Shown here piece after piece: positions 24,984-54,400 of a DNA stretch of 64,000 bases; the first letter of the stretch is position 1; each line of letters begins with the position of its first letter. This stretch comes from Spiroplasma diminutum CUAS-1. Lineage in GTDB: Bacteria > Bacillota_I > Bacilli_A > Mycoplasmatales > Mycoplasmataceae. The stretch spans positions 310,001-374,000 of the forward strand of contig NC_021833.1 of NCBI RefSeq assembly GCF_000439455.1. The letters run 5' to 3'. The notes under the pieces were generated by a model. The model saw only the letters and a list, made by a program, of their open reading frames with translations. It made no database searches and had not been told where the DNA came from. Position numbers and translations under genes: made by a program.

Positions 24984-25012
24984 ATTTTTGTATTTAAATG
25001 GAGGAATTAGGT

Positions 25013-26923
25013 ATGGCAGCTGCTAAAACAACACAAAAGAAATCAACTTCAACAAGTTCAAAATTAATGAATAGTAAACCTGGAACAATTGAATATGTAA
25101 ATCAAAAATTTGGTCCTAAATCATTAGCTTTAATAAACAAATATAATTTACAAACAGATGATAGTTATAAAAAATTAATTTCATCTTATGAAAGAATTGA
25201 TTCATTACCAAAAAGCGATCCAAGAAAACCAAACTTAATTGATTTATGAGAAGGTGAATTTAATAGAATATTTAAACACTTTTGAGAAAACTATGCAAAT
25301 GGTAATAAAAGAAAAGATAATGGTATTTCAGGTTGAAAAGAAAGACTGGATGTTAAACCAGTTGCTATGTCTCCAGATCAAAAGAGAAAAGATTTAATGT
25401 CAAAATTATCTCCTGGTGTTATTTCTTCTACAAGAAATACTAAAGAAGAAATTCTTTTAAGAGCTGGTTATACAACAGAAATTAAAACTGAACAATTTAA
25501 CTTTACAGCTGTTCCAAGAACAGGTCAAAATATTTATGAAATTGAAAATTTATTAAGTGCAGCAGAAGAAAAAGGTATTGGAGAACCAGAAAGCATTTTA
25601 AAAAATGGTTTTGGTGTTGCTCAAAAAACAGAAGTACCTCAAGAAAGCATTACAAAAGCAAATCTTTCATTTGATGAAGAGACTGAATTAATGACTTCAC
25701 AAGCTTTACGTGATCCTAATTTATTAGACTTTATTAATGAAGGTAATAAAAATTCAAATAATAATGTTATAGCAGATGAAGTTGTAACAGAAGAAGTTAA
25801 AATGGAACAAAATAAACCAGAAGAGATTAAATCAGAAGAAGTTATATCAGAAGAAATTAATTCTCAAAATAATGAAACTCTTGGATATGTAGCAAGAGAA
25901 AATATGTCAAGAGAAGAGTTTAATAGATTAAATAATATTCAAATAGATGAAGATCAATCTTCTCAAGAAGAAGATAATTTTGCAGCTCTTGAATTAGGAA
26001 CTGATTTCTTCCAACAACATTTAGCAGAAGAAACAATTGGTAATTCAAACGTTGTTATAAATGAACGTCATGCACAAAGAGAATATAACCAAAAAGATGA
26101 GGCTATTGTTCCAGAAAAAAGAAATATAATATCAAAAGAAGGTTTTGAAATTGCTTTAAATCCTGAGAAAACTGATTTATCAGGAAAAATTGTTTATGAA
26201 ACAAACACTTTAAAAACAAAACCATATCATGAAGAAAAACCAGTTGGATATTATCCAATGAACTATGATGCTGCAAAAAGACCAGTTATGCATGACTTAA
26301 TGGTTGCACATCAAAGAGAAGAAAAAGCTCTTGATGAAATGACTCAAAAAATAGAATTCTTAAGAGAATTAAGAAATGAGCGTCGTCATAGAATTAATAT
26401 GATGAAAATTGAACGAGCAAATAGTTATATTATTTCTCGTGCAAGAAGATTAGCAGAAGCTCGTGAACTAAAAAGACTTAAAAAACGTGAAGAATTTAAT
26501 CTAAAAGCAATTGAAAAAGCTGAAAGATTAAGAAGAATGCAAGAACGTCAAAAATTAATTGAATTAATGAAAGAACGTCAATTAAAAAGAACTGAAGAAA
26601 AACGTGTTGCTACAGTTTTAAGATTAGAACGTGAAAGACGTTTTGAAAGAGATGCTAAGTATAGAACTGAAATTGCTACAATTGATGCTCAAATTAGACA
26701 TGAACAAGAACTTATTAAACGAACAGAATTAAAAATGAAAGCATACTTTACAAAAGTACATGATGATCAATTATTTGATAAATCATTAAAAACTGCAAAA
26801 TCAATTGCTCCAAATTATGAAGCAATTGAACAAAAAGCAGAAATGTTACAACAACTAGAAGAACAAAAACGTAAAGATAGAGTTGATAAAATTAGTAGAA
26901 AGTTCGTTAAAAATATTAAATAA
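25013..26923 (+). CDS. Large coiled-coil protein, first gene of a structural-type cluster
   Basis: A 636-aa soluble protein. The start at 25013 (MAAAKTTQKK) has GGAGG 8 nt upstream; an in-frame ATG at 24998 lies before the SD. Residues 1 to about 430 are mixed, with an acidic low-complexity patch (EEIKSEEVISEE). From about residue 430 to 590 there is an uninterrupted, very charged Arg/Glu/Lys helix that must be a long coiled coil. CGT arginine codons, used here by highly expressed genes, are frequent in that part. Several Trp are TGA. Family not recognised; a cytoskeletal or scaffold role is inferred from composition. Confidence 0.75.
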
Positions 26924-26929
26924 TTAAAT

Positions 26930-26964
26930 ATGGGCAAGAATTAATTTAAACTTGCTCATTTTTT
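26930..26964 (+). terminator. Terminator inside the coiled-coil cluster
   Basis: ATGGGCAAG pairs with CTTGCTCAT (one G-U pair) across a 12-nt loop and is followed by T6. The next gene has its own SD, so expression may step down here. Confidence 0.82.
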
Positions 26965-26993
26965 GTACAAAATCGAAAAGAGAGGTGTATTTT

Positions 26994-28001
26994 ATGATAA
27001 AGAATAAGAAAAATGTTAAAAAAGCTATTAATATAAAATTTTTAGAAGAGGCTAAATTAGGTATTAATACAATTAATTCACTTTCAGGAAATATTGGATC
27101 TTCTTCTTTAAAAACAATGAGTGATACACCAGAATTACATGCAGCAGTACAAAAAATGCAAAATAGAAATAGTAATAAGAATGATACTAATAAAATAGAT
27201 AACAGAAACAAGCATATTGAAAAAATTAGAAATAAATCAGAAGTCATTAATGAAAAATTTTCAATTTTAGAACAAAGAAAAAAGGGCTATATAAATAAAA
27301 AGAAACTTGATTATGAACTAGAATTAGAAAAGAAAAGAATAGCTTCAAAAAAAGGAACTAATAAAACTATTTTCCAATTTGAAGATTTCGAAAAACTTAA
27401 TAAGCAAGCTGCAAATTTATTTTCAGAAGATTTAGTAAAGAAATTAAAAGTGAAAAATTCCAAAGAAAATATAAAAGATACAAATCAAAATTATACTGAA
27501 TTAAAATCACTTTTTGATACCTCTAACTCAAATAAAATATCTTTCAAAACAAATTCAGTTACAAATAATAAAAGAATTTCAAATATTCTTGAAGAAATTC
27601 CAGTTTTAAAAGAAGAAAATTATTTTGCAAAGGATTTATATGAAAGTGAAAATAAAAGAGTATTTACCTCTCCATTAGATTCGTATAAAGTTAAAGAAGA
27701 AGAAGAATCAGAAAAAGGAGAAACTAATGAATTTAATATAGAATCAAATCAAGAAAAATTGGATTTGAAAACAATTGATCAAAAGGCAAAAAAATTTCTT
27801 CAGGATGCAGAAAAAATAAGAAAAGAAATTGAAAAGAATAATGAAAAACTATCAAATACAGATGATATATCTAGTATTTATAGTAGAATTTTAAATAGTA
27901 GTAAAAATGCAAAATTAAGTAGAACAAAGAAACAAAACTCTCAAATATCAAACTCAGTGGATATAAGTAAGATGCCTTCAATAGCATTTGAAAAAAAATA
28001 G
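26994..28001 (+). CDS. Charged helical hypothetical protein
   Basis: A 335-aa Lys/Asn/Glu-rich protein without membrane segments or any Trp codon. The start at 26994 follows AGAGAGGTG; an upstream in-frame TTG at 26952 lies in the terminator and is unlikely. Helical coiled-coil parts lie near residues 85-110 (LDYELELEKKRIASKK) and 245-290 (DQKAKKFLQDAEKIRKEIEKN). Its stop is 16 nt before the next ATG. It probably acts with its neighbours; family not recognised. Confidence 0.72.
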   Translation: MIKNKKNVKKAINIKFLEEAKLGINTINSLSGNIGSSSLKTMSDTPELHAAVQKMQNRNSNKNDTNKIDNRNKHIEKIRNKSEVINEKFSILEQRKKGYINKKKLDYELELEKKRIASKKGTNKTIFQFEDFEKLNKQAANLFSEDLVKKLKVKNSKENIKDTNQNYTELKSLFDTSNSNKISFKTNSVTNNKRISNILEEIPVLKEENYFAKDLYESENKRVFTSPLDSYKVKEEEESEKGETNEFNIESNQEKLDLKTIDQKAKKFLQDAEKIRKEIEKNNEKLSNTDDISSIYSRILNSSKNAKLSRTKKQNSQISNSVDISKMPSIAFEKK

Positions 28002-28017
28002 AGATGAGGAAAAAAAT

Positions 28018-29274
28018 ATGGCTAAAAAAAATAATGAAATATCAGAAATTAATTTTGACTTGCTTTCAGCAAAAGTAAAATTAAGAGTTAAAAATTTAAT
28101 GGAAAAGAGATTAAACAGTAAAACAATTATTTTATTTGCTCAAGAATATGAACAATATGATATTGATTTTCGTGATCAATTAATAGAATATATTAATTAC
28201 TTAGTACAATTAGAAAAAGAAACTTTATCAAATGAGGTTAACAATCATCGTGAAGGATCTAATACAAATTTTTGAAACTTTAAACAAGAGGATTTTTTAA
28301 GAAGACAAGAAGATATTAAAAAATTTCAATTATATTTAAAAAGACCTGCTCAAATTAAAGAAAATAGCAATAATAATTATTCAATAATGCAAGAAACTGT
28401 TAAAATGCCATCTCCAATAGATAATACTGTTAAAGTTAAAGAACCTAAAAAAGCTGTTGTAAATAAAGAAGAAAAAAAACCTAAAGAAAATAAAGTATCA
28501 TCAATAGATAAAATGCTTTTAGAAGCAAAACAAAGAGAAGAAAAGGCAGCAAGAGACGCTAAAAGGGCAGAAGCACTAAGAATTCAAAAAGAGAAGAAAA
28601 AAGAGCTTGAAAAAAAGGAATTAGAAAAGAAAAAAGAACTTGAAAAAAAAGAATTAGAAAAGAAAAAAGAAGTTCAGAAAAAAGAGACTCAAAAGAAAGT
28701 TATTTCTAAATCATTGTCTGTCAAAAAAGAAAATGTAGTAAAAATAAAAGAAAATGAAGATAAAAAAAATTATGAAAAAGAACAAGCAGAAAAAGAAAAA
28801 CTTTGAAAAGAGCTTTATGGTAAAACAAGACAAGAAACAATAGATGAAAGAAAATCAATTAGTTTGATCAAAGAAGAAACTGTTGAACACGATAAAAAGC
28901 CAAGTTTTGATAGAACAAATGAGGTTCAAAAATCATTTACTATTTTAGGTAAAGTCTTTTTAATAGAGGAAATAAATGATCCAAAAAATAAATATTTTAG
29001 TTTTTGATATAACTTAAAAAAACGTGTTGGAACTTCAAATATTTCAATATGATTAAATATTCATCCAAAAAAACAAAAGTCAATATTAAGAAAAAGAATG
29101 AGATTAGAAGCTAATAAAGGTGTATGAAATAAACTTAAATCATTATTTACTACAAATCAAATTCAAGCACTTGCAATTGAACAAAAAGAAAATAAAGATA
29201 AAAAATTAAAAAAGAATACTAAATCAAAAGAACTTAAAAAAGTTAAAAAAGAATCAAAAGATAAACAATCATAA
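28018..29274 (+). CDS. Hypothetical protein with hendecad KELEKK repeats
   Basis: A 418-aa soluble protein in three parts. A helical N-terminal region (~1-120, with VKLRVKNLMEKRLNSKTI) comes first, then a Lys/Glu helix about 150-265 carrying 11-residue repeats. A more globular C-terminal region follows (about 300-380, with FTILGKVFLIEEINDPKNKYF and several TGA Trp). The tail is Lys-rich. ATG 28018 follows GATGAGGA. The single charged helix is likely a rigid spacer. Stop-to-start distance to the next gene is 23 nt. Family not recognised. Confidence 0.72.
28600..28698 (+). repeat. 33-nt in-frame repeat, two near-identical units plus one diverged
   Basis: Units 28600-28632 and 28633-28665 both encode KELEKKELEKK and differ only at synonymous positions. 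28666-28698 encodes KEVQKKETQKK. This gives an 11-residue (hendecad) periodicity typical of long helices. Confidence 0.88.
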
Positions 29275-29297
29275 TTAAAGAAAGCGTGAATTAAAAT

Positions 29298-30254
29298 ATG
29301 AAATACATAATTATCATTTCAGGATCACTTTTATTATTAGCAATTGTATTGACAATATTGCTTTATAGTATTTTAAAAGTGAAAAATCAAAAAAAACCTT
29401 TAAAAAAGGTTACAAACGAACCATTTTTCATAAATGAAGAACATAATAAAGAGAAATGATGAGTTTCAAAAGATGGTAATTTTGAAAAAAAATGAATGGA
29501 AGTTCAAGATTATGATTTTAGTATAAAATACTTTAATTATGAAGAAAATTTTTCAAAGGGCTTTTTAAATTCAAAATTTATAAGAACAAAAATTTTTCTA
29601 TCAGATATTATGGATATTAAATCAGCTAAAAAGACTATTGAAAAATTAGAATTTTATTCAAATTGCCTTGAAAATATTTGATGAAATAAATATAAAATTT
29701 TATTAACTACTTCTTTTAATGAAATTCCTAAGATTACCCAAGCACCTGAATATTTTTTCTATAAGTATTACTTTAAATTTATTTCAAAATTAAGAAATAT
29801 AATGATAAGTTATTTAACAGAATATATAATTCCAAATGTTATTATTACTGAATTAAAACAAGATAAATATAAAAAGTTCAATATAAATATAGCAAATGAT
29901 CCAAAAAGTAATATATTATTTGCATTTGAACAAGTTGCACAAGAAGCAGATGATTATTCTGAAATAATTCATGAAGAATTTAATAAAGAATTAAAACAAA
30001 AAGGTCCAGAATGAAAAATAGATTATTCAACAAATAAAGATCCTTTATCTTTATTTTTACCAGAAGAAATTATTAAAAAGAATATGATGAGAAATAAAAT
30101 TCTTAATCTATCTAAAAAATATAACATTCCCTTTAAAGGTAATATTCAAGAAACAGTTGATAAACTTGAAAAACACTTAAATAGTGTTGAGCAAGATAAA
30201 ATTAATTCAATAAAACAACTTGTAATAACATTTAAAGAACAAAATAATGCCTAA
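29298..30254 (+). CDS. N-terminally anchored membrane protein
   Basis: A 318-aa protein with a single N-terminal span (about residues 3-26, ending LLYSILKVKNQKKP) and no lipobox. The basic flank after the span suggests the body is cytoplasmic. The body is helical and Trp/Tyr/Phe-rich (KWWVSKDG, IWWNKYK, all Trp by TGA). It is the last gene before a strong terminator and probably co-transcribed with the two genes upstream. It could tether the soluble coiled-coil proteins to the membrane, which is inference from order only. Confidence 0.72.
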
Positions 30255-30255
30255 T

Positions 30256-30281
30256 AGAGCTATTTTATAGCTCTTTTTTAT
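30256..30281 (+). terminator. Terminator ending the coiled-coil operon
   Basis: AGAGCTAT pairs with ATAGCTCT across a 3-nt loop, followed by T6. Confidence 0.92.
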
Positions 30282-30363
30282 TTTTAATATTAATTTAATT
30301 TTCTTATTGATTACTATTAGAAAGATAAAAATATATAATAATAAATATATGGAGGATTTTTTT

Positions 30364-31686
30364 GTGTTATATACTGCAAGTGATGCTATTAATCTAGTTT
30401 ATAAAATAATCGGAAAAACATTATCCTTGCTAAGTGATAATTTTTTAAATGATAATGAAAAGCAAAAACAAATAGCTTTAAATTTTAAAGAATTTTATAG
30501 ATATTCAATAAAAAAGAAAATTTATACTGAAAATGAAGTTAATGTATGTTTTGAGAATTTTAATTGAAATTTTATCTCAGATTCTGATTTAAATGAACTA
30601 AAAGAACAATTTTTAAAAAATTGCTTAATAACTACAAATGAAAATTTATTTTTAGAGCATACTTATGTTGTTGAAGAATTAAATAAAATATATGATATAG
30701 CATTGGAAAATACTTTTGTAATTGATAAAGAATTAATCGATTGAGAAAAAACAATTAAAATTATTGAATATAGATTTTTAGCTTGAATTCATGCAAAAAA
30801 TCTAAAACAAGATAAAGATCTAAAAGAAAAATTAGTTTATATTATGACTAATTTGAATAATAATGAAGAAAATTCTTATTATTCAAAATATAATATATTA
30901 ATTGAAAGTCTTAAAGAATTTAAAAAGTTTATTTATGATTATGATAATGGGACAATTGCTCCAACACCTGAAAATACTAAACATTATCAAAGAGCTAAAA
31001 TAAGTATAAATGGATTAGAATTTATGAAGGAAAATAAACTAGAGTCATATGTGAATTATGATGAAATTATGTCTCAACTTCAAAAACTTCCAGATAATTC
31101 AGAATTATGGGATTTTGAATTTTGCTTAGAATTAAATATTAGAATATTTTTTGCAAACATTTTAAGCAACATAATTACTTCTCAAACTACAAGTGTTTGA
31201 GGAGCTAAAGCAGAAATGATCAGAAGTAATGGTGGGTGAAATATTAAAAGAGACAAAGAAATATTTAGAAATATTTATATTGCTTTAACTCAATCAAAAG
31301 AAAAAATTGGAAATTTAATTTCAATGTCTTCAAAAAGATTAAATAGAAACCGAATTTATTTATTAAAAATTTTACTTAATAAGTATAAAAATAAAATTGG
31401 AGATGAACTATATAATCAAATCATTTTAGATTCATATTTTGATCAAATTGATAAGCTTATAAAATATCATGAAGCTGGAATATCTGATTCGCTATTATCT
31501 CATCCAAATGAAATTTTGGATGGATTTAATATTAAATTAGCAGATGCACTATTGGATTTTGAAAATATGACAAGAATTTGTGATGCACTAATTGAATTGG
31601 ATTCTACATTAATAAGTGAATCAAAAGGTGATTTATTAAAAACAATTGAGTTTATAAAAAAAATAAGTGATATTGAACATTTCTAA
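30364..31686 (+). CDS. Helical hypothetical protein, GTG start
   Basis: A 440-aa soluble, all-helical protein. The GTG at 30364 is chosen because GGAGGA lies 7 nt upstream; the in-frame ATG at 30349 precedes that SD and has no SD of its own. A TATAAT is at 30334-30339. Five Trp are TGA and one is TGG (in SELWDFEF). There are no signal peptide, membrane segment or known catalytic motifs. It forms its own unit between two terminators. Family not recognised. Confidence 0.75.
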
Positions 31687-31710
31687 ATCGTTTTTATAAC
31701 GATTTTTTCA
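31685..31710 (+). terminator. Terminator
   Basis: An 8-bp stem AAATCGTT/AACGATTT (31685-31692 with 31698-31705), 5-nt loop and short T run, overlapping the upstream stop. Confidence 0.8.
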
Positions 31711-31724
31711 TTGGAGGATAAAAT

Positions 31725-32357
31725 ATGAATTGTTGTGAATGTCAAAAGGTAAAAAATAACTGTACGTGTGCAGTAGTAGAATGTAGATGTAAAAATGATT
31801 TTGACTGCTGATGCTGCTTATTTAATCATTGAGAAAAAATAGATAATGAATTAAACATTAGTGTAAATTATTTTAAATATTTCGAAGATATTAATAAAAT
31901 GAAATCAATTCCAAAATTATTTAAAAAGGGTATTAGAGACCTTATAGAAGATCTAAAAATAACTGAAACCAATTTGAATAAATTAAATAAAACAAATTAT
32001 ATTGAATATATTGATTTAAATTATGAATCTAAAAAAATTATTAGTATTATGGAAGAAGATATGATATCAAAATTAATTTATTTTATAAATAAATTAGAAT
32101 TTTATATTGAATCGTCGATTATATTAATAGAGATTAATATAAATCCTGATTATAAAATATCATACTTAGAACTACATAAAGTTTGTCAAAATATTGAAGA
32201 TTTGATACCTTCACTTGTTAAGGCATTTGGTTCTATTGAAAAAACATTAGATAATTCAGTAGAATATGAAACATTAAAAGAAAAAATGTATATTTTTGAT
32301 ACAAATTTAATTAATTTAAGAAGCATGTTAGACATTAAAATACTTAACAATAGATAA
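31725..32357 (+). CDS. Protein with ten-cysteine N-terminal module (metal-binding-like)
   Basis: A 210-aa protein with ten Cys within residues 3-31: C3, C4, C6, C13, C15, C20, C22, C28, C30, C31, arranged as CCxC, CxC, CxC, CxCC. The rest (about 40-210) is Cys-poor, helical and acidic. The start at 31725 has TTGGAGGAT upstream. Trp29 and Trp36 are TGA, which hides this N-terminus from standard-code annotation. The cysteine spacing recalls metallothioneins or a small multi-zinc module, but I recognise no family. There is no signal peptide, so it is probably cytoplasmic. Confidence 0.78.
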
Positions 32358-32371
32358 ATATTTGTTATAAT
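32344..32371 (+). promoter_or_regulatory. tig promoter
   Basis: TTAACA (32344-32349), 16-nt spacer and a TGT-TATAAT extended -10 (32366-32371). It lies inside the 3' end of the Cys-rich gene. Confidence 0.7.
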
Positions 32372-32405: not shown

Positions 32406-33695
32406 ATGAAATTTAGTGCAAAAAAACTTGCCGAAAAAGGTCAAGGATCATGAATAGTTACAATAGATGGTAAAGAATGAGAAGAAGCTGTTAAAAAAGG
32501 TAAAAATAAAACTGCAGCAACAATTGAAATACCTGGTTTTAGAAAAGGTAAAGCACCAAAAGAAAAAATTGAACAATATTTAACACCAGTTAAATATCTA
32601 AACGCAGCTGTTCAATCAGTTATGGAAAAAGCATGAGAATTTGCAAGAGAACAAAAATCTGATATTGAGCCATTTACTTCACCAGTTCCAACACCAGTAA
32701 AAATAAGTGAAAAAGAATGTGAATTACACTTTATTTTTGACTTAAAACCTGAAATTAAAATTGGAACTTACAAAGGATTAAAAGATAAAGATTTAGTAAA
32801 AGAAGAAATAAAAGTTACTAAAGAGGAATTAGATAAAGCTGTAGATCAATACAGAGAAAGATTTGTAATGGAAAAAAATAAAGATGAAAGTGGTAAAATC
32901 GCAAAAGGTGATTCAGTTACTTTTGACTTTGAAGGGTTTGTTGATGGAGTTGCATTTAAAGGTGGAAAAGGTCTTGATTTCAAATTGGTTATTGGAAGTG
33001 GACAAATGATTCCTGGATTTGAAGATCAAATGATTGGAAAAACTTTAGGTGAATCTTCAATTAATGTAAAATTCCCAGAAGACTACACTGAAGAGTTAAA
33101 AGGAAAAGATGCAGAATTCAAACTAAATATTAAAGAAATAAAAGAAAGAATTTTACCAGCAAAAGATGATGAGTTAGTAAAAGATCTAAATTTACCAAAA
33201 ATAACTACTTTTAAAGAATTAGAAGATAGCTTAAAAAAACAAATTAAAGATCAAAAAAACTCACAAACAAAGAATATTTTTGTTAATAAAGTAATTGACT
33301 TAATTAGAGAAAAATCTCAAATTGAAATTCCTAAATCAGCAATCAATAAAGAAATTGAAACACTATATAGAGAATTTGAAGCAAAAGTTCAAAGTCAAAA
33401 AATTACAATGAAAGATTACAAAAAACAAACAGGTTTAAGTGATCAAGATATTAGAAATGAATTATTTGATGATGCAAAAAAACGTATTGAAAGTTACTTA
33501 ATTACTGATCAAGTAAGAAATACTGAGAAATTTGAAGTTTCAAAAGAAGAAATGGAAGCAAAATATGAAACATTAGCAAAAACTTTTGGAGTTGAAACTG
33601 ATTTCATCAAAAACTCTCTATTACCAGAACCACAAGTTAAAGAAGAAATAATTAGAGAAAAAATTGTTGATTTCTTATATGAAAATAATGGATAA
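32406..33695 (+). CDS. tig: Trigger factor
   Basis: A 429-aa ribosome-bound chaperone. The N-terminal ribosome-binding domain contains the signature GFRKGKAP (residues ~50-57). A PPIase (FKBP-like) domain follows, about 150-245, with GDSVTFDFEGFVDGVAFKGG and PGFEDQMIGK. The helical C-terminal chaperone arms end ENNG. TGA Trp codons lie in the first 155 residues, so the true N-terminus is 154 residues before the first standard-code ORF. The SD is AGAGGAG. Confidence 0.97.
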
Positions 33696-39470: not shown

Positions 39471-40250
39471 ATGAAAACAAATATGCAAATTAAAGAAGAA
39501 CTTGCAAGTCAAGGCTATATTTGAATGCCAGCTTATAAAAACATCTTACAGAGAGTGTGACAGCACACTGAAACTTATTTTGATGATGATGAAACAGTAC
39601 TTTCAGCTCTTTGAGCAAGTTTTAAAAGATATGAAGATAAAATGGTTGGAATTGTTTTCATTACAGATAAAAGAACTTTTACATTAGAAATTTTAGACAA
39701 TGATTTGAGTACTCAAATAAGATATCTTCCGTTCGATTCATATTCACTTCAAAAAATTCAATTACAATTCTCAAAAAATAGTGGAGGATTACATTATGTT
39801 TCACTTCAAAACGATAGTTTTGGAAATGGAGTTACATTTGGAACTCCAAATAAAGATGTTGCACAACATTTTGTAGATACTCTAAGTGGAAGAACTAATG
39901 GAAAAATTGAAATTCTTCCAGATTCTGATAATCCATTATTAGCAGAAAATGAAAGAGAACAAGTAATTGACGAAAATTTAGAAAAAGCAAAAGAAGTAGT
40001 TCCTCATAAATTTGAAAAAAAACATGAAGAAATCAAACCTATGAAAGAATTTGACCAATGAAGAAAAGCTCCTCCTGAAGCTAAAGATAAAGTTGTTGAA
40101 ATTAAAGTAGTTCCTCCAAAAAAAGTTAAGCAAAAAAAAGACAAAAAGGGAACATATGCTGAAAAATGAAAATCAAAAACATGATTACTTTGATTTTTAT
40201 TACCAGTAATAGGTTTAGGAACAATACTTATGATAATATTTATTGCTTAA
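39471..40250 (+). CDS. Tail-anchored protein with PH-like domain
   Basis: A 259-aa protein. Residues ~1-50 are helical, and ~55-145 form a beta-rich domain (MVGIVFITDKRTFTLEIL, then strands to HFVDTL) reminiscent of bacterial PH/YokE domains. A charged, Pro/Lys-rich linker follows, then one C-terminal membrane span (about 237-258, WLLWFLLPVIGLGTILMIIF). The first 57 residues and the tail are reached only with TGA as Trp. The SD is AAAGGGGG. The PH-like call rests on pattern only. Probably the cytoplasmic domain is tethered to the membrane. Confidence 0.7.
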
Positions 40251-40257
40251 TAACAAA

Positions 40258-40281
40258 AAAATTCGCTTTATAGCGAATTTT
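40258..40281. terminator. Bidirectional terminator
   Basis: A 10-bp stem (40258-40267 with 40272-40281) with a TTAT loop, A-rich on the left and T-rich on the right. It serves both the PH-like gene (+) and the convergent lipoprotein gene (-), whose stop codon it overlaps. Confidence 0.88.
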
Positions 40282-42817
40282 ATTTTCTTTTAATTGAATA
40301 AATTTGTCATTCAGTTGCATTAGCTTCTAGAAGCAATTTAATTTCATAGTTAAATTGCTTTTTGCTTTTTGGATCAATGAAAGTAGTTGTATAAGTTATA
40401 CCTGCTTCTTTATATCCATCATCAATTCCATAATAACTGTTTACCTTAGTTTTAAAGTTATTTGATTGAATTAAAGGTTTGTAAATTGTTGTAGATAAGT
40501 CATTTTTAACTTTATTTACATCACTAAATCCGTTCATTATTTGGTCAAGTAAGCTATTAACTGAAGTATCATCAACAATACTTTCAAGTCCTAATAACAA
40601 TGAATTATCTCTAAATGCTAAGTTATTTTGCTTTCCATTTTCATCAAAATCAGTTCCTAAAGCATACATAGCTGCTTTAGCACCTTTAACATTTGAATTT
40701 TTAATTTCAGTATCAGAATCTTTAATACCAAGATATAAACCTGGTTTACTTGCAGTAATCATTAATGTTTGAATTGCAGTATATTTGTTTTCTGTTTTTT
40801 CTGTTAAATTTCCTACTAAATAATCTTTATCACCTGAAGAATATATTGAATATTTTTCATCAATTAATGATGAAGCTATATTTTTAAGTCCTGATGAAAT
40901 TCCTTTTGAAGATTCTTCAAGTTCTTTTACTCTTTTTGTGTTAAGTGTTGAAGAATTAATAGCATTGTATATAAAGTTTAAAACTTCCGATATTGTTTTG
41001 CCATTATATACTGATCCACTTAATATTGTTTCAAGAGAGATATTTTCAGTTCCTTTAGTAATTTCTTTTAAAAATCCTGAATCCTTACTTCAAAGAGCTG
41101 TTCAAGAGTTCTTCATTATATTAATAGATTCATCAGAAAATCTAAGATCTATTTTTAGACCAAAAGGGCTTAAATAATTAAATAGAGCATTTAATCCATT
41201 AATTGAGCGTCCTTCTACGACCATATCAATTGATCCTCTCAGTAGATTTCCTATTTGATCAGGTCCTATATCGCCAACAATAGGAATTTTGATTGTAATA
41301 TTTTGTCATTGGCCTAAACCACTACCTAAAGCGTAAATTATTGGAGATAAACCTTCTCTGAATTTATAATCTCCAGAAATATCGATAAATATTTTTCCTA
41401 ATTTTGTAGTTCAAACAACTGCAGGAATTCCAAAAGGATTATTAAAATCAATACTTGTTGAACTTGCTGTTTGAAATAATAAACCAATTAATTTAGCGAG
41501 TTGTAAACCATCAGTATTATTTTTAGTATCAAAAGCAATTGATAAATTTTTTATTAATCTTTTTGTTTTAAATTTTGAATTTGCAAAATCCTTTTCGCCT
41601 AATTCCTTTAAAAATTTAAGATTAGGTTTTTCTTTTTTACCAACTTCACCCTTATATGAGTATAAGTCATTATGTTTTGTTGGTTGATCTAATGAAAAAT
41701 CAATACTTGTAATTCTTTGCAATATTCCTGAAATTACAAATAAAATATCAGGAATTAATGAAGCAATATTTGATGTATTTAAATCATCCATATTTTCAAA
41801 GAATTTAGCCATTACATTTCCCATACTTTTTTCAAAATCATAATCAATATCTGTATATAGTAAAGATTTATCTTTAATTATACTTTCTGTTTCTCCTGCT
41901 AAAGATGCAAAAATGTTATTTATTCTTTTTACAGTTGCATTCATTATCATTTTATTAGTCAAATTTTCAATATTGTCCATTGTTAAAATTGAGTTTATTA
42001 ATGTATCAATAAAATAAGTTAATACTCCATCTTTTCATATGAATGAATAATCAACATTTAGTAGAGTTTTTAAAATTCCTTCAATAATTGTTGTTAGATC
42101 ACTTTGTTTAAAAGCATTTAAAAAATTAGCATTAAGTAAATTTGATATTGCATTATAAGTTATTTTTGAATTAGCTAATATTTTAATTAATATAGCAATA
42201 GTATCAGAAAAATTATTTAAAATATCAGATACTGATTTCATTGATTCTGCACTAACTGATTCAATTGAATTTTCATTTAATGGTAATTGAGGAAGAAGTC
42301 CTTGCAATAAACCTGAGATACTTGGATGAATTCCACCATTTGATTTAATAGCACTTATAATTAAAGTTATAATTCCTGATATGTTATCAATAGAAGTATT
42401 TGGTGAAATTACTTTATTTGATAAAAATAAGGTATTTGAATAACTTGGATTTGTTCTATTATTTAGTTCATTTATAGAACTTCTAGTATAACTTGAAGCA
42501 TTTTTTCCAAAATAATTATCTCCCAATAGACCAATAGTTGTTTGATTATCAGTTTTAAAACTTGGTAATAAATCATTTGCTTTTGATGAATCAATTAAAT
42601 TATTAAAGTATTCTGCATCATATGCATATCCTTTATTTAAATCTTGAGTTGCATTTTGAATCATTGCTCCCCTTAATAAAGCAGATGAAACCTGAGTTAA
42701 ATTTGAAATTTTATTTTTTATAGATGTTTTAACATTATTTACTGTACTACAACTGGCAACACTTGCAGTTGAAGCAGTTATAGCAACTACTCCTAAAAGA
42801 GAAATTAACTTTTTCAT
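40280..42817 (-). CDS. Large surface lipoprotein, MOLPALP-like, copy 1
   Basis: An 845-aa lipoprotein. The signal peptide MKKLISLLGVVAITASTASVAS is followed by lipobox C23, so it is predicted to be acylated and exposed on the cell surface. The mature part is helical and Ser/Asn-rich with blocks shared with copy 2: NDLLPSFKTDNQTT, SNGGIHPSISGLLQG, YALGSGLG, IGPDQIGN, GAKAAMYALGTD, and a basic C-terminus (IKRK). TGA Trp codons join several standard-code fragments; I read the central gap codon by codon and found no stop. The features suit the MOLPALP lipoprotein family of Mollicutes as I recall it. The leader has AAGGAG and TCGGG. Confidence 0.85.
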
Positions 42818-42846
42818 TTTCCCGACTACTCCTTTTATTATTCTTT

Positions 42847-42852
42847 ATTATA
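42847..42852 (-). promoter_or_regulatory. -10 for lipoprotein copy 1
   Basis: ATTATA on the plus strand, read as TATAAT on the minus strand, 30 nt before the start codon; part of the palindrome ATTATATAAT. Confidence 0.5.
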
Positions 42853-42911
42853 TAATGAAAAATAAAATTTTTTTAGGAAATGAAAACATTTTATAAAAAA
42901 ATTTTAAATAA

Positions 42912-42935
42912 AAATGCTAGTTTTTACTAGCATTT
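42912..42935 (-). terminator. Terminator after lipoprotein copy 2
   Basis: A 9-bp stem AAATGCTAG/CTAGCATTT with a 6-nt loop; on the minus strand a T-rich tail follows. The stop codon lies at the stem base. Confidence 0.85.
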
Positions 42936-45384
42936 AAATCCTTTTAATTGTATTTATTTGTCATGAAGTTTCATTTACTTTTAATAATAAATTAACTTCA
43001 TATTCAAAAATTTTATTTTGGAAGGGGTCTTTATAAATTATTTGATATTTTATTGATTGATCTAAATTATTATTATCAATATTTTCATAATTAATTTTTT
43101 TAGTTGTAAAGTTATTATCTTTGATTAACTTCTTGTAAATGGTATTTGAAATATTATCGTTTATTTTTCTTATATCAGAAAATCCATTAAGTAAGTCATC
43201 TAATATATTATTTGTTATTGGGTCATCTACAATACTTTCTAATGCTTCTAAAAAAGAATCAGACCTAAAAGAACTATTAATTTGATTTCCATCAGAATCA
43301 TAATCAGTTCCTAAAGCATACATAGCTGCTTTAGCACCTTTAATATTCTCATTAATTGCAGAGTCATTTATTTTTAAATATAATCCACCTTTTTTTGATG
43401 CAATTATCATCGTTTGAAGAGCGGTATATTTACCATTGTTACTATGCTCTTCAAATTTATTAAATTTATTTCCTTTTTTAAATCATAGTTCATAGTTTTC
43501 ATTTATTAAAGCTTTTGAAAGTATATCTAAACCATTTGCTAATTTTTCAGCTTTTCTTTCAGTGATATTACTTTTTGTATTCCTTTTATTAGATTCATTT
43601 GATTCAATGTTTTTATAAACTAAATCAAATATATCAGATATAGTCATACCAGTTACTATTTCATTTGTAAAAAGTGAATATAAACTTATTTGTTTTCCTG
43701 TAATATCTTTTAATAGTGTTGAATCTTCATCTCATAAAGCACTAAATAAATGTTTTAAATGTTGAGTAGATGAAGCACTTACTTTAAAGTTAATTTCAAC
43801 TCCAAATCCTTTTAAAATATCTAGTACTTTATTTAATCCACTAAAATCAGAGTTAAAACCAAGTCCATCACCTAATACTCAACGTAAAGCATTTCCTACT
43901 TGATCAGGACCAATTCCTGCAAAACTTCATCCTTGTCAAACAGCAAGACCATTTCCCAATCCATATAGTACTGATGAGTAGTTGTTTTTTTTATTTTGTA
44001 AAAGGGGTATAGAACTTAATTTTGAAATAAGTGAAAATGAAGTTATATTTTCTTCAATATTTGTAACTTTTTCTCCAGAATTAAATAAAAGATAAAACAT
44101 TTTTTGCAGTTGTTTACCTTTAAAATCCTCTTTAGCGTTAGTAATAGTTGATAAATTTTTTAATATTCTTTTAGTACTATAAGGATTTTGTTTAAGAGTT
44201 AATTTAGCATTTTCTTCTAAAAATTGATTATTGTTTTTATTATTATCAAATAAATATTCATCATTTTCTGGTGTAAATATTGAAAAATCAACTGATGATA
44301 TATGTTTTAATAGGGATGAAATTACAAATAAAAGATCAACTATATTTTCAGGTTCTTTTATAAATAGATTTAATAATGAATTGATATTAAAATCATTTAA
44401 ATTTGGATTAAGTTTTTTAAAAAATTCTCCAATTATTGAACCTAAAGTTTTATCAAAATTCTTATCTAAAGAATATATTTTATTTTTATCAACTATTTTA
44501 TTACTTTGTTCACTCATTCTTGCAAAAATATTGCTTATTTTATTTAGTGATGCATTTAATATCATTTCTCCAGTTAATTGCTCAGACTGCATATCTTGAG
44601 ACAATATAGAATTTATTAAATTATCAAAAATATCTGCAAAACCTGATAAATCGATTTCTTCTAAAAATTGATTCACTCATTTAAAAATATTTGTGTTATT
44701 TTTTTCTTTTACAGAATTTTCAAAATCTGAATTAAAAAAGTTCTTTAAAACAGCATAAAAAGCATTTGATTCTTGTAATGCTGCTAAAGTATGAGATAAG
44801 GGTTTACTTATTTTCTCAATCATTTGAGCGATAGACATTAAATTTTGTGAACTCAATGATTCTATTAAATCATCACTTAAATTTAAACTAGGCAATATTC
44901 CTTGTAATAAACCTGAAATGCTTGGATGAATCCCACCATTCGATTTAATAGCACTAGCTGCAACTACAAAAGTTGAAGAAAATTCATCTGTAGAACTTGT
45001 GGGTTTTTTTACATTTTCTGTTAAAAAATTTTCATTTTTTTCATTAATTTTACTTCTACTCAAATCTTGATTATTAAAATATGAGTCATTTAGTTGTTTT
45101 AAAGTAGTTTGATTATCTGTTTTAAAGCTTGGCAATAAATCATTTGCCTTTGAATTGCTTATAAGAGTATTTAAAAAATTACTATCATAAGCAAATTGAT
45201 TTTTTAAATTTTGACTAGCATTTTGTATTACTGTTCCTCTCATTAGAGTTGAAGATATTTTAACTAGATTATCTACTTTATTTTTAACTGATTGCTTTGT
45301 AGAATTAACCATACTACATGAAGCAACAGATAAAGTAGAAGTACCTATACTAATAGCTCCTAACAATATAATTAGTTTTTTCAT
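42934..45384 (-). CDS. Large surface lipoprotein, MOLPALP-like, copy 2
   Basis: An 816-aa lipoprotein with signal peptide MKKLIILLGAISIGTSTLSVAS and lipobox C23. It shares order and wording of blocks with copy 1 along its whole length (VIQNASQNL, NDLLPSFKTDNQTT, SNGGIHPSISGLLQG, GIGPDQVGN, GAKAAMYALGTDY) and the same basic end (INTIKRI). The frame was checked across 43411-43935 and is open with TGA as Trp. It is transcribed divergently from the first FtsX-like permease. It is clearly a paralogue from tandem duplication; ligand or role unknown. Confidence 0.87.
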
Positions 45385-45516: not shown

Positions 45517-48500
45517 ATGAAAAAATCTTTAATTTTATATTTAAAACAAGGTATTAAAGGTGTGATGAAATTTAAAGTGCAATTTTTAGTAATTGTCATT
45601 TTAAGTTTTTTAGCTACTTTTATATTAAGTATTTCTCTATCAACATCACAAAGAATAAATAATGATTATAAAAATGCAATGTCAAAAATGCAAAAGTTTG
45701 ATTACATCGGACAAAAAACTGTAGGTTCAAAAATATCAGAAGAATCAGGAACAAAATTACTTTCAACAATGGATTTAATAAATAACCAATTTTTATATGT
45801 AAAAAAAACAGGTGAAGAATCTTCGACTCTTTGAAATAGGGCAATTGATATAAATCATAATTTGAGTTATTTTGAAAATATTAATGGATATGAAGAAACA
45901 TTTTTAACAAAAACTTTTCAAACAAAAGAGTTTCAAGAAAATTTTATTAATTTGCTTAACAAAGATTTTTTTTGAAACTCAATTTTTGATTATAAATATG
46001 ATCAAGAATTAAATCAACAACTTTGAAATCCAACACTATTAAATTATTCTTTGGACATAACAAGTTACAACTATTTAAATAATTTCAATGAAAAACAAGC
46101 AGAAATGAAAAAATTTTATATAGATAGTATTGAATTATTGAAAAAAAACTTTGTAAATGATTTATTCCAAGAAAATACACCACAATATTTGAAAAATACT
46201 TTATTTTATGAACTAAAGAGTAAAAATATAATTACCCAAGAAGATTTTAATAATGAGGCTCTTTTAGATGATGAAGATAGAAATATTTATAACAGATATT
46301 TATATTTTTCAATTGAACCATTCATAAGACAAATAATAAATGCATCAATTGAATATCCAAAATATTGAATAAATAAAGCAATTAACGAATCTAAACAAAA
46401 AAATTTAGAAGATGTTATACGTACATTCAATGAAAATAAAGAAAAAATAGGCTTTGAATGAATGCAAGAATCTAATGCTGACTTTGGCTTAGTTATTTTT
46501 AAATGAATATTTGGATTTAATCCTTCAATTGAGCAAGAAAGTATAGATGAAAACATAAATAACCCATTTATTGTTACTATTGACAATAAACCATGAAAAA
46601 ATAATATTGATTTAGGAAAAGATAATGATTTAAACGAATACTTAGATACAAAAAATTCAGTATTTGAAAAAGGTATGCGAGGTAGTTTAAATCAACTTGT
46701 AGTAAGAAGTGAAAATAATAAAATCTTGGGAATAGATAAAACATTTGATACAAATTTTTTAAAACATAATTTTGATGGTACAACTTTGGAAGAAAGAATT
46801 GCGAACGGAAAAGGATTTTGACATACAGAAGACTATAAAGAAAGTTATAGATGTAATAAAATCAATGACATAATAGCATTTTTTGTTAGAAGTGAAATAA
46901 TAGCCCAAGCAACGGGATTCGAATATAATATAAGAGGAGAAATTGAATTTACAGATCTTGCTACAGAAATAAGTTATAGAATAGTAGATATTCAAAATAA
47001 TTGAAAAAAGAGAATTACTATTTATGAAGGTAACATGCCGAGAACTAAAAACGAAATTTTAATTAATTCGCAATTTGCAAGAGCCAATAAATATAAGGTT
47101 GGACAAAATATTAAAGTTGGAGAAGGAAATTTTATAATTTCAGGAATAGGTGTAGATCCTTTAACATATTATCCTATGGGAAATACACGAAATCCTTTAC
47201 CAAATAATAAAAAGAATGTAATTATTTACATAAATGATGATAATTTAGAAAAGATATTTCCAGAAGGTTCTAAATTTGATCAGACAAGTACAAAATCTCT
47301 TTATAGTATTTATACAAACTTTGAAAATCCAATAAATGAAATTAATCAAAATTTTAAAAAACTTCAGGCACTTTCATTAAATAATGTAGTTGAAGTTTAT
47401 AATTCATACAAATACTTAAATAACATTGATTCTGAATTAAAAAGTACAAACTATATAAATAGTTATTCTTCATTTAATTCATCAAATTTAAAATTAAATT
47501 GAACGATAGCGCCAACTATTTTAAATTCTTTTAGAGCATTTGCATATATATTTACATTATTAATATTTATTATTACAATTATAGCTACAGTAGTTGCTGT
47601 TAAAAAGACAGTGGAATTAAATGCTGGAGAAATTGGTATTTTAAAAGCAATAGGTGTAAAAAACTGACAAATATCCTCATCCTATTTTTCTTATGGTATT
47701 GTTACAGGATTATTTATAGTGCCAATCGCATGACTTGCTGGGGCATTCATTCAGGAATTTATATCTATAATATTTTTAAATTTTGTGAGTGGAAAATTTA
47801 ATACTATTGTAATTAATCCTTTTGGACTCTTGTTGTCAGTACTTATTTTTGGGGTGTTACTATGTTTAATTTCTTTCTTTACTGCATATTTTCTAGTTAA
47901 AAAGCCAGTTTTAGAAGTTATTAATAAAGTTACAAGAGTTAAAAGAATTCAATGAATAGATACATTTAAAAATAGAATTTTTAAATCAAGAGGTTTTTCA
48001 ACTAGATTTAGTATTGAATTAGCAGTATCGGGATTCAGTAAAACTATATTGTCATCAATTACTATATTTTTTGCAGCATTTTTTATATCATTTGGTTTAA
48101 CAATTCCAGGTTTAGTTCAAAATGTTGTTCAAAGCTATTATAAGAATATTAATTATCAAAATTCTATGCAAAATACAGAATTGGTAGGTAATGCGCCATT
48201 GGCAAAAACATCATTGAGTGTAACTAAGGAAATAGAAGAATATGAATCAAATTTATTTGATAGTAATAATATATTTGGAAATGATATTTTAAAAATATCA
48301 AAAGATATTACAAATTTTGCACCTTCAGTGGATTCATCAGTAATTCCACAACTTTTATTATCAGCTAATCAAATTGAAAGCAATGATAATAAAATAGATG
48401 CTAAATGAGTTTATGATTACATTACTAATATTAATGAAAATGAAATATCAAATGCAGAAAATTCTCTAATATCAATAATAGGTAGTTTAATGGGAAATAA

Positions 48501-50667
48501 TCTAAAACAATTAGTTGGTAAGGGATTGTCTCTTTCTGATATTCAAAAAATCCTTGAATGAGTAATACATTCAAATAATTTTAAAACATTTGAAGAAAGA
48601 AAGAAAAAAGTAGATGATCTATCAAGTTTATTAACTAAGGGTTTACCTGAAATTCTTACAAAATTTATTCAAGGTTCAACTACAACTGAAGGAAACTGAA
48701 AAGAACAAATTATAAGTATAATTTTAAGTCAAACTCCATCGTATATTAAACAATATGTTACAAAATCCGAAAATAGACTTAATAATTTTTCATTTGGATG
48801 ACAAATAAATAAATATAATCCAAAAACAGATAGCTTGTATACTGATTTATCAGTTGGCACAAAAAATAATAAATCTTTAAATATTATAGGATTACAATCT
48901 AATCAAAATGCATTTAAAATAAATAAATGAGAAACTGAAGATGTATTTTTAACTGATTATCAAGCAAGTGTAATGGAAAAAATAATAAATGGTGAAGAAA
49001 TTGATGATATGAGTCAAGATAATTCATGATTGAGTAAATTCTATGATGAAAAAAATCAGAAAGTTATAATTCCAGTAATTGCAAGTGATCAAACAGACTT
49101 TACACTTGATAATAATTGAAATAATCTAACAAATCCTACTTTAGAAAAAACAAGACTTATTTTAAGACAAGAATCAATTGATATTCCAAATTTAGCTTGA
49201 ATGTATGATGATGGAGATTGAATTAATTTTAATGGAAATAAAAGTACTAATAATGGATATATAAGTATGAATGATTTATCTGCAAGTAAATTTACTTATG
49301 CACCTATTTTTGAAGAGACTGGATTTAATTTGATAGAAAATAAAAATAATGAATTGAAAGATAATGCATATGGATTTTATAAATTGAATTCTTCAATTGA
49401 AAATGATGAAGAAAAAATAAATTTAGAAATAAGACCTTATTATTCTTATGATAATGTAACTTTATTTATTCCAAAAACCTATATTAATGAGTTTTCTAAA
49501 TTTAAACTTAATGGTAATTTAGAAAAATGATGATTAGAAGATGCAGAATATGTTCCTGAAGAAACTAAAAAAGCATGAGGTAAGATAAACCCTTCATTAG
49601 AATCAAGTCCATATTTTGCAATAAAACCATATTCACTTTATTTTGATAATTCAAACAGTTATGAAAGAGAAGAAGAAAATCTTTCAGGGACACCAATAAA
49701 TAATATAACAACACCTTATGAAAATTTTTTAGGTAAAACTCTTATTGATGATAATGGCCCAATAACTTTTGGAAAAGTTAAAGTGAATTGAAGCAAAAAT
49801 ATAGAGTTTAAAAAAGTAAGTTCAATAGGTGTCTATGGAAAACCTTTAATTATTATTGATCAAAACTTTGCAAATATTTTAAGTAAGTATGATATTTCAA
49901 AATACATTCCATTTAATTTAAAATATGAAGATGAAAATTCACCTTCAAAGACATATACTCAAAATGGTGTTACAGTTAAAACATTTGATTATATAAATCC
50001 ATTAGATTATAAAACTAAATATGAATATGGTAACGAATTAATATACGGATCTGATGAGCAAGAAAAAAGTATTAGACCTAGTTTGTGATATACAGGAATT
50101 TATTCAAATTCTCAGGAACCATATTTTATTACTACACAAGGTTCTTTTTCAAGAGATGTAAAACTTGGTCAAGATATATTAAATGGCTCAAATTATGGAA
50201 GTACGAGCTTGGAATTAAATTCTACAAATTTATTAGGACAACAAAAAACTTTAGTTTTCCAATTATCTGCAATGATTTTAAGTTTAGCAACAGCTGCAAT
50301 AACTTTAATGACAATAATTATAATTTTAACTATTACATTAATAAATGATTTGTATGTAAACCAATATAAAAAATTTATGATAGTTATGAAATCATTAGGA
50401 TATTCAAATTGAAAAATAATAAAATACACATTTGGAACTATGTCAATAGTATCAATTATGTTCTATATTTTAGGAGTAGTTATAAACTTCATTGTTCTTG
50501 GGCTTATTTTCAGTGCAATTAGCAAAAGATTAGGTTCGATTCCTTTTGGACTAACTTGATGAACACCTATTTTAGCAATTATTCTAGTTTTTGGTTCATT
50601 TATAATTTCTATTGCAATTACAACAAGAAAAATTAGAAAAGAGCCAGCTTATTCATTAATGGTTTAA
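45517..50667 (+). CDS. Giant FtsX-like ABC permease, copy 1
   Basis: A 1,716-aa membrane protein with duplicated FtsX-type architecture. An N-terminal span (~17-38) precedes a very large extracellular domain (~40-660). A three-span block follows (~668-795) with AVKKTVELNAGEIGILKAIGV. A single span (~838-866) leads to a second large extracellular domain (~870-1565), and a last three-span block (~1575-1707) contains QYKKFMIVMKSLGYSNW. The NAGEIGILKA and VMKSLGYS segments are the FtsX hallmark contacts to an ATPase. Many TGA Trp codons split it under the standard code. No ATPase is adjacent. The SD is GGGGGA. Confidence 0.88.
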
Positions 50668-51417: not shown

Positions 51418-54400
51418 ATGAAAAAGTCTTTATTTTTATATTTAAAACAAGGTATAAAAGGAGTAATGAAATTTAAAATACAATTTATTGTAATTGTATT
51501 TTTAAGTTTTTTAGCGACTTTTATTTTGAGCATATCTTTTTCAACTACACAAAGAATAGAAAATAATTTTGAAACAGCAATATCAAAAATGAAAAAGTTT
51601 GATTATGTTAATCAAAAAGTTGTAGGAACTAATTTAGCTGAAGACTCTGGTACAAATATTTTAGCTCCTTTGGATTTAATTAATAGTCAATTTTTATATG
51701 TTAAAAATTCTCAAAATAGTACATCATATAGTCAAAATAGAACAATTGATCTTAATATTAATATTTCTTCATTTGAAGATGAAAATGAATATAATGAAAA
51801 TTTTATAACAAAAACTTTTAGTGATACAAAAATTCAAAAAAAATTTTTAGATTTGTTAACAAATCCAAAATTTTTAAAACCAATATTTAGTTATGATTAT
51901 TCAACAATTACTGAAAAAGTTAATTGAAATCCATTTTATGAAATCAATCATTCTAATTCTTCAACTTCATATACTTATTTAAATAATGTAAGTATCAAAG
52001 AAGAAATTAAAGATTTTTATATAGCTACAATTGAAACTTTAAAAGAAAATTTTATAGAAGATATTTTTGCAGAAGTGACACCAACATATCTCAATAAATC
52101 TTTATTTTTAGAGCTTAAAAATAAAGAAATAATTTCAGAACAAGATTTCAAAAATACTTCACTTGAAAACGATCAAGATAATAATTTATATAGTCGTTAT
52201 TTATATTTTTCTCTTGAGTCAATTATTAGACAACTTATTAACTCAGTTGTTGAATATCCTGTTTATTGAATAAATAAAGCAATTGAAAAATCAATTGCTA
52301 TTTCAGAATCAAGAGAAAGAGAAGATGTAATTAAAACATTTAATGAATATTTTAGTACTTCGGCTGGTTTTAATTTTTTATTATTAGAGGATTCAAATAT
52401 TAAAAGTACAAGTGAAGAAAATAAAATTTTTGCAATAACTGTTTTCAAATGAATTTTTGGATTTAGTCCAACTATTGATGAATATAATATAGCGCAAGAA
52501 TTGGATAATAATTTTATTGTAAAAGAAAATAATAGACCATGAAAAAATAGCATAGATTTAGGAAATACAAATATTGATACTTCAAGATATCTAAATTCAA
52601 AAAGTTCTGTTTTTGAAAATGGTATGAGAGGTAGTTTAAATCAACTTATAGTAAGACCAAGTGCAAATACATATAGTATTGATAAAACTTTTAATACAAA
52701 CTATTTAAAACATTATGATAATTTAAGTATTGAACAATTAATAGGGGAAGAAAAAAGTTTTGGTGATTTAAATAATTATGCAAATAAATATAATTATTCA
52801 AATATAAATACAAAAATAGCTTATTTTATGAGAAATGAAATGATAGCTTCTTTAACAGATTTTGACTATATGACTAGAGCTGAAATGGAATTTACAGATT
52901 TAACAACAGAAATTAGTTATAGAGTTATTGATATTGAAGGATTATGAAAAGATAAAATAACTTTATATGAAGGTAATATGCCAAAATTAGAAAATGAAAT
53001 TTTAATAAATCCTCAATTTGCAAAAACAAATAAATATAAAATAGGTCAAAATATAAAACTTGGTGAAAATAATTTTGTAATATCAGGTTTTGCAACAGAT
53101 CCATTATCTTATTACCCAATGGGAAATACTCAAAACCCATTACCAAATAATAAAAAAAATGCCATTGTTTATGCAAATAGTTCTAATTTTAGAAAAATAA
53201 TTGAAGATAAATTAGAAAAAACTGTTACAAAGTCTATATATAATTTTTTTACCTATAATGGAAATAATAATTTAGAATGAAATAATATTCAAAAATTTAA
53301 AGCTTATTCATTTAATAATATAGTAGAAGTATATAATTCTTATAATTTTATAATGGGTAATGATAGCGAACTAAATACTGAAAAATTTATTAATAATTTT
53401 ACAAATTATAATTCTTCAAATTTTAAATTAAATTGAACAATTGCTCCTTCGATTATCTTTGGTTTTAGAGCATTTTCATATATATTTTTGGCATTGATAT
53501 TTTTAATTACTATTACTGCAACAATAATAGCTGTTAAGAAAACTGTTCATTTAAATTCTGGGGAGATAGGAATTTTAAAATCAATGGGAGTAAGAAATTG
53601 AGAAATATCAATTTCTTACTTATCTTATGGAATAGTTGTTGGATTATTTATAGTTCCATTAGCATGAATTTTAGGATCTTTTATTCAGGAATTTAGTTCA
53701 AATATTTTTTTACAGTTTACCAGCGGAAGATTCAATTTAGTAGTTTTCAGTCCACTTGCATTCTTAATTTCATTTTTTATTTTTGGTTTTATTTTGTGTC
53801 TAATTTCATTTCTAACTGCATTGTTTTTAGTTAAAAAACCTGCACTTGAAATAATTAATAAAACTAATAAAGTAAAACGTATTAAGATAATTGATAGTTT
53901 AAATAGTACATTATTTAAAAATAAAAGTTTCTCAACACGTTTTAGCATGGAACTTGCAATTTCAGGATTTAGTAAGACTTTACTATCTTCTACAACAATA
54001 TTTTTTGCAGCATTCTTTATTTCTTTTGGATTGACCATACCAGGTTTAGTTCAAAATGTAGTTGGAAGTTATTATAAAAATATAAAATACCAAAATTCCT
54101 TTACAGCAAGAGAATTAATTGGTAATGCGCCATTGGCAAAAACATCATTAAGTGCTTCTAAAGAAGTAGATGAATATGACAATAATTTAATGAACAGTAA
54201 CGGAATTTTTGGAGATGGAATAACAAAAATTGGGAAAAACGTAACAGATTTTGCTTCTTCTGTTGATTCTTCTGCGTTTCCCCAAATTTTACTTTCAGAA
54301 AATGAAAATAAAGATATGACTGCAAAATGAACATATGATGAAATGGCTTCGCATAAAAATAATTTAAATATCGATGAAAATAATCAAAATTCTTTAATTG

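Follow-up and report, generated by a model that had tools for sequence, protein, structure and literature searches.

The gene at positions 31725-32357 (+) of the stretch of Spiroplasma diminutum CUAS-1 DNA analysed here (64,000 nucleotides, hereafter the window, from a source genome formed by a single contig of 945,296 bases) encodes a protein in which ten cysteines, packed into the first 31 residues, are fused to a predicted helical body. Judging from sequence comparisons, this protein represents a new and unnamed family, apparently confined to one genus-level lineage, Spiroplasma; its general kind, a Cys-rich metal-thiolate module if it does bind metal, is known, and its arrangement is new. 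The cysteines are kept throughout the family and most likely serve as metal ligands.

Reading frame and start of the gene

The elements of the gene are the following:

31713-31717 (+), Shine-Dalgarno sequence GGAGG, 7 nt 5' of the ATG
31725-32357 (+), complete gene, 210 aa when TGA is read as Trp (W29, W36), stop codon TAA, one of 18 orthologues among 20 genomes of the genus
31731-31817 (+), Cys module, residues 3-31 (CCxC, CxC, CxC, CxCC), with eight Cys columns invariant in 18/18 orthologues
31818-32354 (+), helical body, residues 32-210, in the AlphaFold2 model; its helix 1 (29-43) begins inside CWCC

The original prediction, made without database searches, proposed that TGA be read as Trp, and translation with code 4 indeed yields 210 aa from 31725-32357 (+), TGA supplying the Trp at residues 29 and 36. 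It also anticipated that the standard code would begin the protein at residue 59, as occurs in table 11, where the ORF in the frame of the gene starts at 31899, precisely this residue. Mollicute annotation normally uses table 4, and thus only gene finding with the standard code risks losing the module.

The true start lies upstream of the cysteines. In all 18 orthologues an ATG immediately precedes the first CC or stands one residue further upstream, giving proteins of 203-214 aa when counted from the first ATG, and in 17 of them this codon has a Shine-Dalgarno match of at least four bases, which random upstream 17-mers show in 13% of cases. Orthologues starting at Met59 were looked for and none appeared: the 18 start upstream of the cysteines, and only two of them have Met in the column of Met59.

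Composition and conservation of the cysteine module

The code-4 translation places the ten cysteines at residues 3, 4, 6, 13, 15, 20, 22, 28, 30 and 31, in the CCxC, CxC, CxC and CxCC clusters that had been described, an eleventh and last one being located in the helical body. The other 50 ORFs of the window contain 105 Cys in 20,110 aa (0.52%), and their richest 31-aa stretch holds four; against this background, the binomial probability of at least ten Cys in 31 residues is 6e-16. Taking into account that 18 of the 20 genus genomes carry the gene, and that in all of them it starts upstream of the cysteines, the module is not a product of chance.

Conservation of these residues, on which the original prediction depended, was borne out in the 18 orthologues, whose first 45 residues contain 8-10 Cys. 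Alignment columns 3, 4, 14, 16, 23, 31, 33 and 34 are Cys in every sequence and column 6 in 17 of them, both TGT and TGC being used at each of these nine columns. Ten sequences have Cys20 (column 21) and seven have instead a Cys next to CxCC (column 30), no sequence having the two; because these exclude each other the count stays at ten, the total of module cysteines in 17/18 orthologues. The exception, L008, lacks the Cys at columns 6 and 21 together, which leaves an even number of eight.

Three groups keep an unchanging internal spacing (CCxC; CxC plus the next invariant Cys seven residues on; CxCC), and the loops that join them vary among the orthologues. Of 11 pairs compared, nine show a non-synonymous divergence of the module equal to or above that of the body (0.03-0.42 vs 0.03-0.29), several of the synonymous values being saturated; selection thus acts on the cysteines and not on the whole stretch. 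In a tree built on the neighbouring genes that we take to be tig and lon, the earliest branch (local support 0.81) is of the column-30 type, and the move to column 21 is therefore most simply explained as one event. The same tree suggests that the double loss in L008 was another single event. With one event each, these two changes do not allow a statistical statement on ligand number.

Distribution and absence of known relatives

Searches with the protein found matches in 18 of 60 family genomes, that is, in 18 of the 20 belonging to the genus (its own included) and in none of the 40 outside it. A profile likewise matched 18 of the 60, with one copy per genome; additional matches near a contig start in G005, G011 and G016 (E 1.6e-5 to 5e-4, body only) vanished with it. 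In a sample of the class the profile matched 9 of 296 genomes, eight of the genus plus G263 (E 2.3e-4, model positions 22-205), whose weak match was taken as chance. Within a phylum sample of 295 genomes, a profile of the module matched 19, of which 17 belong to the genus; the other two are G160 and G287, where the weak matches fall in frames of 26 and 21 aa and were equally attributed to chance. Relatives outside the genus were not found in the 40 other family genomes, and the class and phylum samples gave only these three weak matches. Neither did a relative appear in a collection of genome contigs, which may leave out the source genome and those near it, nor a match in plasmid and phage collections. 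A PHROG of unknown function (E 0.0018 over 37 body residues) was taken as chance.

The two genus genomes that miss the gene retain tig and lon and are sisters, which corresponds to one loss on the tree; the gene is thus dispensable.

The view that the protein resembles no known family has held, since nothing fitting was found in Pfam, NCBIfam or PDB. When the whole protein and the 18 members were compared with Pfam and NCBIfam, weak matches to unrelated families were obtained, each in a single member except Thoc2 (2/18), the best being the PqqD chaperone (0.00034, 1/18 members). The full profile against PDB gave coiled-coil designs and AcaB (E 0.0005-0.0014), which we attributed to helical low complexity. 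As for the module, its profile had no match among PDB sequences at E up to 10, and a Pfam scan of the 18 module sequences, also at E up to 10, returned one chance-level family and no metallothionein. The literature searches made on Spiroplasma and Mollicutes yielded no paper that, by its title or the opening of its abstract, deals with such a Cys-rich protein, nor a metal measurement on one.

Predicted structure of the helical body

The fusion of a Cys-rich N-terminus to a Cys-poor helical domain agrees with the AlphaFold2 model (18-sequence alignment; mean pLDDT 85.9, pTM 0.85), in which the body, with its one Cys, is confidently helical. From residue 29 onwards the predicted protein is all helical (29-43, 45-58, 64-88, 92-97, 102-137, 147-169 and 178-209), and residues 31-40 reach a mean pLDDT of 90. 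Residues 1-30 are modelled with low confidence (block means of 46, 62 and 59), the pLDDT being below 50 at residues 1-9 and 21-25.

With this model, Foldseek found nothing at or below E 0.001. In VIA-align the top match was 1o5h (Z 9.9, rmsd 3.9, 179 residues aligned, 8% identity), and the cyclohydrolase 7vg4 was aligned at Z 8.1, both with the formiminotetrahydrofolate cyclodeaminase/cyclohydrolase fold. However, a Z of 9.9 lies under the value that helical bundles can attain through their common arrangement (~13, according to the note of the tool), and PF04961 (FTCD_C) is absent from the eight genus genomes tested, controls having matched in 2/14. Taking both facts into account, kinship with the cyclodeaminase is not claimed.

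Gene neighbourhood and expression

The gene is located among the following elements:

24998-31686 (+), upstream block of uncharacterised ORFs, syntenic with the gene (24998-26923, 26952-28001, 27988-29274, 29298-30254 and 30307-31686)
31685-31705 (+), hairpin AAATCGTT-TTTAT-AACGATTT followed by a T run, between the upstream stop codon and the gene
32344-32371 (+), promoter-like TTAACA-16-TATAAT with TG before the -10, overlapping the end of the gene, 11/12 consensus matches
32406-33695 (+), presumably tig (trigger factor), the next gene in 17/18 orthologous loci

In the 18 loci the gene closes the same block. All of these loci contain relatives of 24998-26923 and 27988-29274 and, in part, those of 26952-28001, 29298-30254 and 30307-31686. 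The proteins of the block have no Pfam or NCBIfam match over the cut-off, nor any metal-homeostasis family among them, and the body shows no homology with its neighbours 30307-31686 and 24998-26923. In one of the two genus genomes without the gene (G013, L064:6145-7218) the relative of 27988-29274 is fragmented, and the genes that in other genomes lie between it and tig are missing, as in a decaying block. In one of the 18 loci, and only there, a 273-aa ORF (L052:8686-9507), with a start that we take to resemble HAD hydrolases, separates the gene from tig.

The hairpin ends ~20 nt before the start codon, and a similar one is found in 7/18 orthologous leaders, as against 0-1 of 300 shuffles of each. 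It could be a terminator or attenuator, perhaps of this gene; with a hairpin and T run directly before it, the gene may be expressed by read-through. By its sequence, the promoter-like site at 32344-32371 probably serves tig and, being placed just before it, makes it probable that the gene belongs with the upstream block and not with tig-lon.

The first product of the block, encoded by 24998-26923, is a 641-aa protein, rich in Arg/Glu and, among the loci listed, free of Cys. Its model, of low overall confidence (pTM 0.22), has one long helix of ~160 residues (431-592), and the protein looks like a scaffold or cytoskeletal one. Of the 60 family genomes, 26 have a strong match to the family of this protein, three a partial or weak one and 31 none; 14 genomes of another genus, where the match is absent or weak, have 5-6 MreB-family matches each. 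Every genome of the genus (20) has 6-9 matches to this MreB family, a count that related ATPase families may inflate, and several MreB paralogues are described for Spiroplasma (PMC10074174); like the reading of TGA as Trp and the MOLPALP-like match given below, these matches are consistent with that genus.

Elsewhere in the window, two ORFs of 1716 and 1727 aa (45517-50667 and 51418-56601) with near-identical N-termini flank a 175-aa ORF, the first of them having no NCBIfam match. Two adjacent lipoproteins with similar N-termini are encoded at 40280-42817 and 42934-45384 (-), the latter matching MOLPALP at E 1.7e-13, below the cut-off. The GC skew, in 4-kb steps, is negative at 40001-44000 only.

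Proposed role of the module

The reading of the cysteines as metal ligands is based on ten of them being kept in CC and CxC pairs, with their count held while the rest of the stretch drifts, in a Cys-poor setting. Such pairs are a usual feature of metal-thiolate clusters. The protein is presumably cytosolic, no hydrophobic signal being seen by eye at its N-terminus.

The role that we tentatively prefer, at slightly under an even bet, is that of a metal-thiolate cluster which forms a structural knot where helix 1 begins, with a function in docking. The first 31 residues would wrap a small cluster, most likely of two to four Zn2+, possibly of Cu+; its ligands would come from three rigid Cys groups (CCxC; CxCx4[C]xC; [C]CxCC), with loops of differing length between them. 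Since the last group forms the start of helix 1, the cluster would fix the N-terminus to the helical body, and it would probably form a docking surface for a partner, perhaps one of the scaffold-like products of the same gene block. We infer metal binding itself, the identity of the metal, a structural rather than a storage role, and the binding of a partner alike. The structural knot is favoured because CWCC begins helix 1, and because the body has kept its place and order. Against it count the low model confidence at residues 1-30, the failure of any solved structure to match the module profile, and the dispensability of the gene. From the CxxC spacing in the first and last groups (3/6 and 28/31), a simple ZnCys4 site joining both ends may also be envisaged as part of the cluster.

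The module could instead be a metallothionein-like buffer or store that sequesters Zn or Cu, with the helical body as a carrier or interaction domain, the main alternative, possible but doubtful. Ten Cys in 31 residues, in CxC and CC pairs, are what would be expected of it, and the freely varying non-Cys residues together with the low pLDDT of the module fit a loose thionein as well as a knot. Bacterial metallothioneins do exist (PMC10612145). However, a conserved body of ~180 aa is attached here, the scan of the 18 module sequences returned no metallothionein family, and the search of the upstream block gave no metal-homeostasis one. The proposal of a metallothionein-like or multi-zinc module thus stands as regards Cys density and CxC/CC spacing, but not as a match to any metallothionein model. 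The likeness to bacterial metallothioneins of the SmtA/PmtA type consists of this density and a presumed multinuclear metal-thiolate cluster, whereas those proteins are small and stand alone. Moreover, residues 1-31 have no His, an amino acid common in bacterial metallothioneins (PMC10612145).

A structural multi-zinc cluster, as the preferred knot would be, finds a possible analogue in the CXC/pre-SET domains (MSL2, SUV39 family), also short CxC-rich modules carried by larger proteins. The CXC domain of MSL2 is a solved Zn3Cys9 cluster, likened by its authors to metallothioneins and pre-SET domains, with nine invariant Cys of conserved spacing in ~50 residues (PMC3447885). The window module differs from this pattern in having ten Cys in 31 residues, eight of them invariant. 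CXC and pre-SET domains, whose cluster has three Zn and three bridging Cys, belong besides to eukaryotic chromatin proteins, and the module has no Pfam or PDB profile match to them.

A redox or metal switch, in which oxidation of the cysteines frees zinc and alters the binding of the body to its partner, is unlikely. Hsp33 and RsrA are zinc-thiolate redox switches, adjacent Cys pairs can form disulfides, and the gene adjoins the protein quality-control genes that we assume to be tig and lon; nevertheless, the switches mentioned use about four Cys, and tig seems to have its own promoter, so that this adjacency may mean little. Very improbable is a module for an iron-sulphur or other non-zinc cofactor, which several Cys groups in a cytosolic-looking protein, with CxxC spacing in CCxC (3/6) and CxCC (28/31), could accommodate, but the window protein has no ferredoxin-type CxxCxxC run and the first CxxC is lost in L008.

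Returning to the structural knot, its fullest version is rather improbable as a whole: a multi-metal thiolate knot would have arisen within one Spiroplasma lineage, keeping ten ligands while one of them moved along the chain, and would anchor a lineage-specific scaffold complex encoded by the coiled-coil-like genes upstream.

Significance

In bacteria, most known metal-thiolate clusters are those of stand-alone metallothioneins and simple zinc fingers. If it binds metal, a conserved module of ten cysteines on an unclassified helical domain would be a natural test of how the number and position of ligands are constrained, in the setting of a small genome where the other proteins of the window contain ~0.5% Cys. 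In addition, the module would give a way into a gene block of these wall-less bacteria that has no annotation.
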